From Bacteroidota bacterium (GTDB lineage Bacteria > Bacteroidota > Bacteroidia > UBA4408), in the NCBI GenBank assembly GCA_963169745.1, contig CAUJCU010000009.1, positions 1-64,000 on the forward strand: a DNA stretch of 64,000 bases. Reading direction: 5' to 3'. This document shows, one piece after another, positions 48,331 to 52,496 of the stretch; position 1 is the first letter of the stretch, and the number at the start of each line of letters is the position of its first letter. Under the pieces are notes generated by a model that saw only the letters and a list, made by a program, of their open reading frames with translations, was not told the origin of the DNA and made no database searches. Made by a program: the position numbers and the translations under genes.

Positions 48331-49268
48331 TGAACAAAAACCTATTACCGTTAAGTTGCATTTTTTCCAGTAAACGCGAAGCTGTGCTTCGTGTTTTTTT
48401 AATAGTTAGAGCTTTGCTCGGCTTTATAGTGCAGCAAGTTTAATTTAAAATGAGCAAGTGCAACATGCTCCATTAAAGGAAAGCGAAGCAGTGCTTCGCT
48501 TTTACGTGTGAGGGGTAAACCGCAAGTACAACTTGCGTAATTATAGAAAGCGAAGCACAGCATCGCTTTTACGTGTGAGAGGTAAACCGCAAGTATAACT
48601 TGCTCCAGTAAACGCGAAGCTGTGCTTCGTGTTTTTTAATAGTTAGAGCTTTGCTCGGCTTTATAGTGCAGCAAGTTTAATTTAAAATGAGCATGTACAA
48701 CATGCTCCATTAAAGGAAAGCGAAGTACAGCATCGCTTTTACGTGAAAGCTGAATTTATGCCACTAATGCAACTTTTGGTGTAAAGCTATTTTAGATCAA
48801 GAGAATATTCTGTTATAAACACCTTTAAGTTGCACTTTTTCCAGTAAACGCGAAGCTGTGCTTCGTGTTTTTTAATAGTTAGAGCTTTGCTCGGCTTTAT
48901 AGTGCAGCAAGTTTAATTTAAAATGAGCAAGTACAACATGCTCCATTAAAGGAAAGCGAAGTACAGCATCGCTTTTACGTGAGTGGGGTAAACCGCAAGT
49001 ACAACATGCTCCATTAAAAGAAAGCGAAGCACAGTATCGCTTTTACGTGAGTGGGGTAAGCCGCAAGTACAACATGCTCCATTAAAGGGAAGCGAAGCAC
49101 AGCATCGCTTTTACGTGTGTGGGGTAAACCGCAAGTTCAACGTGCTCCATTAAAGGAAAGCGAAGCACAGCATCGCTTTTACGTGAAAGTTGAATTTAAG
49201 CCAATAATACAACTTTTGGTGTAACCCTATTTTAGGACAAGAGAATATTCAGTTATAACCACAATAAT
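48331..49268. repeat. Structured intergenic repeat array: three long units (starts 48367, 48605, 48841) and 68-bp tandem units (48941 onward)
   Basis: Recurring ccagtaaacgcgaagctgtgcttcgtgtttttt...gcaagt.caacatgctccattaaaggaaagcgaagcacagcatcgcttttacgtg; ctccatt at 48941, 49009, 49077, 49145. Confidence 0.95.
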
Positions 49269-49322: not shown

Positions 49323-49934
49323 TTATAATTCTTCCCAACTAAATTCAATGGTTCTTGAATATATATAATCATTTATAGCCATATTTTTTACTCCAATCAT
49401 ATCAATAGTCCCTTTTGTTGTAAATCTTAGTTTATTGTTCTTTTTAGAAATGTAAAGGTTTCCTCCTTGGCTTATAAAATAATAATATTCTCCATTATCC
49501 GTTAAAGTTAAATTTATACTTAAACTATCACCATTAGGCGTATAACCAACAGATTTCGTTTTACTAATGGGAAATTCTTTATATCCTCCTTCTGGTATTT
49601 TACTCCTTATTTCTCTATAAATACTATCATTTGAATATCCATCATTTCTATCAAAACTTATTTGACAATAACCATTATTTGGAAAAGGCTTACTTAACCC
49701 AGCATGAGTAGCGGGAATACTTACGCTAAAGGCATCGGCACTCGAATCATTCTTAACATTATTTATTTTCCAAAAATTTATTGTGGGAGGCGTAAACCCT
49801 GTTGGTGGATTATTATTGTTAGTATTATTGGTGTTATTGTTGGTATTATTATTGACTTCATTTGTCTTCTCTTTTTTGCAAGATAATGTTAATGCAATAA
49901 AACATATAGCAGGGATTAATAGAATTTTTTTCAT
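49323..49934 (-). CDS. Hypothetical lipoprotein with Asn/Thr-rich linker
   Basis: ICFIALTLSCKKEKTNEVNNNTNNNTNNTNNNNPPTG. Confidence 0.7.
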   Translation of the reverse strand: MKKILLIPAICFIALTLSCKKEKTNEVNNNTNNNTNNTNNNNPPTGFTPPTINFWKINNVKNDSSADAFSVSIPATHAGLSKPFPNNGYCQISFDRNDGYSNDSIYREIRSKIPEGGYKEFPISKTKSVGYTPNGDSLSINLTLTDNGEYYYFISQGGNLYISKKNNKLRFTTKGTIDMIGVKNMAINDYIYSRTIEFSWEEL

Positions 49935-50049: not shown

Positions 50050-50235
50050 CCCAATAAACGTGAAGCCGCACTTCGTGTTTTTTTAATATTTAGAGCTTGG
50101 CTTGGCTTCAACGTGCAGCAAGTTTAATTTCGAAATTCGGATTTGTTTTTCATAAATAGAATTAGTTCTATATCTATGCAAGTAAAACTTGCTAAAAAAT
50201 AAAGAAAGCGAAGCATAGCTTCGCTTTTATGGTGA
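50050..50235. repeat. Diverged single copy of the 48.3-49.3 kb repeat family
   Basis: aataaacgtgaagccgcacttcgtgtttttttaatatttagagctt...gtgcagcaagtttaattt...gcaagtaaaacttgc...aaagcgaagcatagcttcgctttta. Confidence 0.85.
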
Positions 50236-50325
50236 TGTTTCAGTATAGTTTTACCATCTTGTTTGCTATATAAAACATACATGTAATAATAATTCACAAG
50301 TAAAATTTATAATTATTGCACAGCG

Positions 50326-51957
50326 TTAAAAAGCCCGAACTGCACGTACATTGTAAACGAGATCCTTATAGTTGTAGTAGGGATACCCACTGGAGAAGTA
50401 GTAGAACCACGCGCTGTGGTTGCCGAACTCTGTACTACTCCAATACTTGTCCGAAACCGACAAAGTTGTAGCACCACCGATTGCTGATAAAGTTTTATTT
50501 ACATTAAATCGGGATTGCCAAAGATGGCTTAATTCATCAATTGACGGCAAATACCAATCACTCTGCCCACCATTGTTCGAATTTAAACAAAGTCGTGCAG
50601 CGCTGCTTGTATGCCCATCTTGCCCCACTATAGCATTGCTGTTTCCTAAGCCATCCCAAGTACTACTTGCAGAAGGGCCAATTAACGTTGATTGAATATT
50701 GCTCCATGCTATCGCTGTGCTTAAATCTGTTTTATCAACAATCAAACCATGTTCAACACCTTGTGCATCTTTCCATAAATGAAAAATCACTCCACCGCCA
50801 AATGCCTCGCCTATGTTGTGGGTGAAACCTCCTGACCCTGCCGGCCCCTGTGGACCTTGCGCCCCTGTTGTACCGGTAGCTCCATTACATACATATTGGG
50901 TTAATGATGCATTGATTTCGCCTGCGTCTAATACTCCATTTGTATTTACATCTAAACCGTACTCAAGTTTCACACCACCGGTTGTACAATTAGCACCAGC
51001 AGATTCTGTAGTAGTTTTAACCAATGAATTTTGTCCGTTTGTTCCGTTTGTACCATTGGTTCCATTTGCACCTGCCGGACCTTGCGCTCCGGTAGCTCCA
51101 TTACATACATATTTGGTTAATGATGTATTGATTTCGCCTGCATCTAATACTCCATTTGTATTTACATCTAATCCGTATTCTAGCTTCACACCACCGGTTG
51201 TACAATTAGCACCAGCAGATTCTGTAGTAGTTTTAACCAATGAATTTTGTCCATTGGTTCCGTTTGTACCATTGGTTCCATTCGTACCTGCAGGCCCCTG
51301 TGGACCTTGCGCTCCTGTTGCACCGGTAGCACCATTACATACATATTGGGTTAATGATGCATTGATTTCGCCTGCGTCTAATACTCCATTTGTATTTACA
51401 TCTAAACCGTACTCAAGTTTCACACCACCGGTTGTACAACTAGTACCAGCAGATTCTGGAGTAGTTTTAACCAATGAATTCAGTCCATTGGTTCCGTTTG
51501 TACCATTGGTCCCATTCGTACCTGCCGGACCTTGTGGCCCTGGCGTAGAACTTCCAGAGCTTGCTGCATATAGAGCATAAGGAACACTCAGCAACTGGCT
51601 TGTTCCTGTTATACTGTAACTTGATCCGCCTGCTGGGTCGGTTTCGGTTTTAATGAAATAGGGCCCGTATGCCCAATCAATAGCCGAGAAAGTACCACTT
51701 ACCACCGAACCTGCACCAATTTCCACGCTCACCAAACCGTTGGCATTGGTGCTTGGCATTTGGGTTTCCACATACACTGCTGAGCCACTTGCAGAGCCTT
51801 GCAAAATACTTATTTGCATACCTACTTGTTGGTTGCTTACTAATGCATTACTGCTGTTTCGAATAACCGCTTGATAGCTCATTTTGTTTGGTGATTGAGC
51901 AAACACGCTTGCTGCCATTAAAATTGCAGCACAAATTGTAATTATTTTTTTACTCAT
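50326..51957 (-). CDS. Secreted collagen-like/DUF1566-type protein with DGR-like C-terminal variable region
   Basis: [19 protein letters not shown] collagen-like tracts; [19 protein letters not shown]-terminus [39 protein letters not shown]. Confidence 0.85.
50329..50448 (-). other. Candidate DGR variable region (VR)
   Basis: 40 terminal codons; 21 candidate variable codons all NNY (16 end in C, 5 in T). Confidence 0.7.
50885..51540 (-). repeat. Three tandem ~216-234-bp collagen-like repeat modules inside the gene
   Basis: ttacatacatatt(g/t)gg anchors at 50885, 51101 and 51335. Confidence 0.9.
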
Positions 51958-52007: not shown

Positions 52008-52496
52008 TTAGTTTTTGATGATTTTAAATGATTGGAATTTCTTATTTTTTTGGTTTACAACATTAATGAAGTAGGTAGCTGCTGGTAAACTTTTCATATT
52101 AATCTGGGTTTGCAGTGCAGTTACCTGTCCATTGCTTAGCTGTTTACCCTGCATGTCAAACAGTTGATACGACAAATTTTCATTGTTGTAGTCGCTAATT
52201 TGCAAGGTTAGATTATCAGTTGATGGGTTGGGGAATGCTGTCAGAGAAATGTTTAGCTCTGCTTCCATAAAGTCAACGGTAAAAATTTCGTAAGCATGTT
52301 GCACACCTTGGGCTATACTACCAGAGCTTCCTGTATTGTTTGTGTATATTACCTGTCCAATACTGTATGCTACAGTTCCTCCGCTCCCTGAGGCATCACC
52401 ACCTGAGGTGTTTGCACTTTCCTGGGCTTGTGCGAGACCCGCCCATAGCATTACAGCGATGAGGAACAAAATGGATTTTGATTTTTTTTTGATCAT
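52008..52496 (-). CDS. T9SS type A sorting-domain protein
   Basis: Signal peptide; [36 protein letters not shown]...[26 protein letters not shown]. Confidence 0.88.

Follow-up and report, generated by a model that had tools for sequence, protein, structure and literature searches.

Diversity-generating retroelements (DGRs) randomly rewrite a portion of another gene. DUF1566 is among their commonest target domains (PMC4159848, PMC6642488). In the phage BPP-1, a hairpin just past the variable region (VR) is required for efficient target recognition (PMC3240598), and in Thiohalocapsa PB-PSB1 both degenerate and remote DGR loci have been described, the DGR 7 VRs lacking a template to match them anywhere else in the reference genome (PMC10907252). 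A survey based on the reverse transcriptase (RT) states that remote targets would be missed (PMC8144416). Here, we describe a locus in a 64,000-nucleotide stretch of a Bacteroidota genome (the window, by which we mean the whole stretch analysed) that is probably an orphan, frozen VR and not an active DGR. Targets with a DUF1566 domain are already known, as are degenerate DGR loci; what we add is the repeated loss of the DGR cassette within one adhesin family and an overlap between the VR and the ligand face of the Legionella protein Lcl.

The target gene (50326..51957, minus strand) encodes a secreted collagen-like protein of 543 aa. A signal-peptide-like N-terminus and an N-terminal domain come first, then three DUF7151 repeats joined by collagen-like linkers, and an Lcl_C/DUF1566 domain forms the C-terminus (Pfam E 1.6e-54 for DUF7151, 1.4e-13 for Lcl_C and 1.8e-10 for Collagen). 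The Lcl_C domain (PF07603/DUF1566; 50335..50730, minus strand) is C-type-lectin-like: its AF2 model (pLDDT 78.5) matches the C-terminal domain of Legionella Lcl, 8q4e, with a Foldseek E of 1.4e-6, and a sequence profile finds the same Lcl domain at E 6.3e-22. These matches agree with the proposal, first made from the letters alone, of a VR at the C-terminus of a collagen-like protein with a C-type-lectin/DUF1566 fold. With its collagen-like repeats and C-terminal Lcl_C domain the protein falls among the Lcl_C/DUF1566 collagen-like adhesins, and we infer that it is a secreted, collagen-stalked adhesin of the Lcl/DUF1566 type. The upstream partner gene (52008..52496, minus strand) encodes a Por secretion-system C-terminal sorting domain according to Pfam, and this gene pair recurs in a Flavobacteriales MAG (L017) and in a genome of the same genus as the window (L010); no second Lcl_C protein of the same kind was found in the window's own genome. 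Elsewhere in the window, a short Asn/Thr-rich tandem repeat with a 12-bp unit (49809-49854) lies near the N-terminus of the neighbouring lipoprotein-like ORF (49323-49934).

The last 40 codons of the target gene (50448..50329, minus strand, with the stop codon at 50328..50326) carry a distinct codon imprint. They open with a constant 5' anchor, KYWSSTE (50428..50448), and run through four variable blocks, FGNHS (five codons, 50413..50427), FYYFS (five, 50392..50406), YPYYNY (six, 50368..50385) and DLVYN (five, 50350..50364), to a constant 3' end, GTACGTGCAGTTCGGGCTTTTTAA (50326..50349), all on the minus strand. This constant end is the counterpart of the homing site (IMH) in intact cassettes, and its final 15 nt are identical to those of the VR in one of them (G107). 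All 21 codons in the blocks are NNY, 16 ending in C and five in T; on re-reading the sequence, the codons, coordinates and counts given for 50329-50448 in the preliminary description proved exact. NNY codons with a fixed third base at the diversified positions are the pattern of a DGR VR.

One possible explanation for the imprint is that no DGR ever acted here, and that the Tyr/Phe/Asn-rich loops of an ordinary Lcl_C domain are NNY-encoded by chance. The YWSSTE...VRAVRAF framework is indeed common in Lcl_C proteins without DGRs, and the run of NNY codons alone is weak evidence (P = 0.018, given the amino acids and local usage), because Phe, Tyr, Asn, His and Asp have only NNY codons. It is the third base that makes this explanation very unlikely. 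The 21-codon mask holds 16 C-ending codons versus 5.1 expected from local usage (P = 3e-7), and this excess is confined to positions at which the homologues mostly have template adenines; across the window, TTC accounts for only 14% of Phe codons. The 21-of-40 mask was also slid over every ORF of 100 aa or more in the window and in further pieces of its genome; of the 20,730 placements, none outside the gene held more than 10 C-ending codons and none was 21/21 NNY. In addition, most homologues from RT-free genomes that bear no relic have NNY at 11-17 of 20-21 positions, with 2-11 NNC.

Homologues with complete cassettes connect this imprint to DGR activity. The L017 homologue, found by genome scan, is 63% identical over the C-terminal domain, and where the window gene has its 21 NNY codons it too is NNY throughout (21/21). 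Directly behind it, within 2 kb, bAvd comes first (Pfam E 1.3e-22), then a template repeat (TR) rich in adenine, then an RT (RVT_1, E 1.9e-23) bearing the motif IGNLTSQ, which is typical of DGR RTs. Homologues in two other genomes (G037 and G107) have the same adjacent bAvd/TR/RT arrangement, and all three intact cassettes are in cis. TR and VR differ at 18, 15 and 21 template adenines in the L017, G037 and G107 cassettes, respectively, and at 2, 1 and 3 other sites, all within the last 9 nt; upstream of these, 54/54 differences are at template adenines. A mismatch in the last 9 nt is expected in a DGR, where it separates IMH from IMH*. The G037 VR has only 18 NNY codons, though its cassette is intact, because A or G is the third base of three of its template codons. 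These three loci are textbook DGRs targeting the window's protein family. The original reading of the window gene's 3' end as a DGR VR is thus well supported by homologous targets that share its NNY positions and stand under cis DGRs, directly upstream of complete cassettes with adenine-specific TR/VR differences.

Two of these genomes carry further loci of the kind. On contig C16 of the L017 genome there is a second complete DGR (L061) with a different Lcl_C target, its TR and VR differing at 25 template adenines and 1 other site over 129 nt. A further DGR-like locus in G037 (L071, contig C275) has an Lcl_C target, an Avd-like ORF, a template-like repeat and a partial RT match that spans only 122 residues of a 186-aa frame in the piece examined.

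The distribution of substitutions over codon positions was also compared. Between the window gene and the L017 homologue, 29/42 sites at codon positions 1-2 and 6/21 at position 3 differ within the 21 VR codons, as against 67/288 and 75/144 in the rest of the domain (P = 1.2e-4 for the contrast). A similar contrast holds between the window gene and the homologue L033 (P = 6e-5). A pair of homologues without a DGR (L016 and L018) shows a weaker tendency of the same kind at surface-loop positions (P = 0.01), and since such a tendency occurs in some DGR-free pairs, the codon-position contrast is supporting evidence and not proof.

The genome that carries the window appears to lack every part of the machinery. 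In its assembly (2.99 Mb in 24 contigs, 99.96% complete), the RVT_1 model found no match at E<=1; the same model scores in control genomes and recovers the RTs of the L017 genome. Likewise, no bAvd was found at E<=0.01, and the L017 RT used as a query had no match. For a template, blastn with the VR region and an IUPAC pattern allowing A at every VR position, with 3 mismatches, each returned only the VR itself. None of the components of a complete DGR, an RT with [IVL]GxxxSQ, a matching TR and an Avd/bAvd, was therefore found in this genome. The target gene is interior to a 193-kb contig, and a cis cassette is therefore truly absent. The preliminary description had held that two findings together would speak against a VR, a genome with neither TR nor DGR-type RT and homologues varying at third codon positions; the first is what the assembly presents, whereas the window gene and the L017 homologue differ in the opposite way.

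Several other candidates were set aside. The L017, G037 and G107 cassettes, compared with the window by tblastn and blastn, matched the target gene and gave short, scattered, chance-like hits elsewhere, with no DGR remnants. RT frames in two relatives, one of 350 aa with the motif GAPTSP in a genome of the same family (G004) and one of 576 aa with QGPQPS in a genome of the same genus (G001), have no DGR signature IGxxxSQ. A viral origin was also rejected, a protein scan and a template-like pattern run over viral contigs having found no related gene or template.

An absent cassette could also mean that the VR is an active remote target, served in trans by a DGR in an unassembled part of the genome, in other strains or on mobile elements. 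The window VR, at 21/21 NNY with 16 NNC, is cleaner than the homologues that bear relics (18-19/21), as expected if diversification were recent; 24 contigs imply gaps; and trans action, together with cells holding intact copies, is documented in Thiohalocapsa PB-PSB1 (PMC10907252). Nonetheless, we consider this improbable, given a nearly complete assembly without RT, bAvd or TR, related cassettes that are all in cis, viral contigs in which no related gene or template was found and the sequence downstream of the stop codon. In DGR-linked homologues, the stop codon is followed by a CTATTTA-type sequence, a short GC-rich hairpin and then the start of avd. The conserved hairpin of the intact loci is ACCGCGAAGCGGT; its stem, ACCGC-GAA-GCGGT, occurs in four loci (L069, L070, L061 and L012), and L017 has a longer loop. 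In the window, similarity to the DGR loci stops at the stop codon. Comparison with the DGR-linked homologues shows the conserved hairpin to be missing from the 75 nt past the stop (50251..50325, minus strand), and no hairpin or cruciform is present just 3' of the VR. The site is therefore without a known recognition element, even if machinery were to act in trans. Of the two possibilities raised at the outset, a DGR acting from elsewhere or a relic, the relic is favoured over trans action because RT, bAvd and template were not found and the post-VR hairpin is missing.

Lying 98 nt past the stop codon is a perfect 10-bp inverted repeat (50205..50227), followed on the minus strand by a T-rich stretch, which is a probable operon terminator and belongs to the same palindrome family as repeats at 48.4-49.2 kb. 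The palindrome AAAGCGATGCTGTGCTTCGCTTT, which matches the window 8 times versus 0 expected, is the core of intergenic arrays at 48351-49186 and 50205-50227 whose tandem units measure 236 bp and 68 bp; these are possibly a REP-like repeat family of the window's genome.

Among 20 class-level genomes that carry a homologue, the L017 type of RT is confined to G037 and G107. A truncated avd lies behind the homologue in three genomes (G003, of the same genus, G273 and G276), G167 has a decayed cassette remnant, and G287 has kept the hairpin but no avd or RT. The NNY counts are 21/21 in the window and L017, 20/21 in G107 and G287, 17/18 in G096 and 18-19 in the relics; G070 has 19 NNY and no visible trace of a cassette. 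Because a truncated avd or a remnant hairpin has persisted in relatives, one of which belongs to the window's genus, cassette loss is recurrent in this adhesin family, and the window, with no avd or hairpin fragment left behind its gene, is at the clean end. When a tree is built from the domain minus its VR, homologues linked to a DGR and those with relics are not united in a single clade and support is mostly weak, and therefore a single loss or gain of the cassette cannot be dated. L010, the relic from the same genus, shares only 42% identity with the window gene in the domain and sits on a different branch, so it does not prove that the window gene itself had a cassette.

Some of these loci deserve mention in their own right. 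The VR in G287 (L032/L093, contig C51) has 17 C-ending codons and the post-VR hairpin in a genome without an L017-type RT, and we read this locus as a second orphan or a remote target. The VR in G096 (L033/L081, contig C66), which compared with the window lacks three codons in frame and has no cassette, looks like another orphan. In addition, a repeat, AAAAGTGGCGGTTCAGTG...AAAATCGCCACCTTCG, starts just past the truncated avd in G003 and just past the RT in G107 (L070), recurs in L085 (contig C86 of G003, 1700-1860), and may mark a deletion end point.

The main variant of our explanation is that horizontal transfer or recombination brought in the gene, or its 3' half, but not the cassette, from a relative with a DGR. 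Consistent with this, the nearest homologues (L033, L032 and L017) belong to other families, of the three genomes from the same genus only one yields a match at E<=1e-6, and similarity to the DGR loci ends at the stop codon. The surroundings point the same way: the target is downstream of a sahH-(hemE)-aroB block conserved in three sister genomes (hemE was not found in G001), and in the sister genomes the block's other neighbours in the window, the target and mutS, were not found in the 18-19 kb around aroB, nor was the partner gene. However, third-position usage in the domain outside the VR (NNC 0.15) equals that of the window ORFs (0.16), and in a genome of the same genus the gene pair is followed by a truncated avd. 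We therefore regard transfer without the cassette as unlikely, though less so than action in trans, and judging from the relatives, what took place at the window locus would have been loss of the cassette.

Altogether, we consider it likely that 50329..50448 is a real DGR VR whose cassette has since been lost, the current sequence being frozen and kept as an ordinary adhesin. This explanation rests on the codon imprint, the homology to DGR-linked targets, the absence of RT, bAvd, TR and hairpin from the assembly and the relic cassettes in relatives. Past DGR activity on the window gene itself, A-to-N copying included, is what the codons suggest. A DGR reverse transcriptase would have copied an adenine-rich template with AAC/AAT codons, making random errors at A, and the mutated copy would have replaced the segment 50329..50448. 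The amino acids of the ligand-binding face would thereby have been shuffled, but neither the framework motifs nor the C or T in third position would have changed. The cassette of hairpin, avd, TR and RT, which is directly behind the gene in intact relatives, would then have been lost, leaving the present VR as the frozen product of earlier diversification, retained as an ordinary adhesin.

A broader idea, which we put forward only tentatively, is that the family diversifies and then freezes: its DGR cassettes would be lost repeatedly and the diversified receptor kept, with the window as the clean end state. If so, a DGR would serve a lineage for a time in the search for a binding specificity, and loss of both the machinery and its recognition hairpin would then fix the winning version. 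Whatever the history, VRs whose DGR is gone are invisible to surveys that start from the reverse transcriptase, and a codon imprint (21/21 NNY with an excess of C) together with a cassette-bearing relative detects orphan VRs from the target side. The presence of intact, truncated and fully lost cassettes within one family also makes it possible to ask how often diversification ends for good, and whether a frozen receptor remains under selection.

The locus shares features with each of the systems described above. As in bacterial DGRs with DUF1566/CLec-fold targets (PMC4159848, PMC6642488), the VR is C-terminal in DUF1566 with NNY at template-A positions, and the homologues have bAvd, TR and RT in the same order, whereas the window genome is without avd, TR, RT and hairpin. 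Like the Thiohalocapsa PB-PSB1 loci, the window has a target gene with a VR and lacks key machinery; in that system, however, variation was seen in metagenome reads, as were structural variants in which RT/TR were intact (PMC10907252), while the assembly that carries the window is without any DGR RT. The position of the VR at the 3' end of the gene and its IMH-like constant end resemble the BPP-1 DGR and its target Mtd (PMC3240598), as does, in the intact homologues, the short GC-rich hairpin past the stop that the window is missing; the BPP-1 type acts on phage tail proteins, but the targets here are cellular adhesins.

The protein itself is closest to Legionella Lcl (8q4e; PMC11162425), which likewise combines a collagen-like stalk with a C-terminal DUF1566 domain and whose description makes no mention of DGRs. 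Alanine mutants of Lcl Lys369, Lys380, Lys385 and Lys391 bind significantly less glycosaminoglycan, binding is not reduced by mutation of Glu368, and mutation of Asp386 also has no effect (PMC11162425). A profile alignment, numbered back from the terminal Phe401, pairs the 40 C-terminal residues of Lcl with those of the window protein and needs no gap; the four lysines coincide with variable positions in blocks 1, 2, 3 and 4, respectively, Glu368 on the constant E and Asp386 on a variable position. With a chance of about 8% that all four lysines would do so, this overlap is suggestive only, a hint at the kind of face that is varied. In the window protein, aromatic and polar residues take the place of the lysines at those positions, and its ligand is therefore probably different from that of Lcl.
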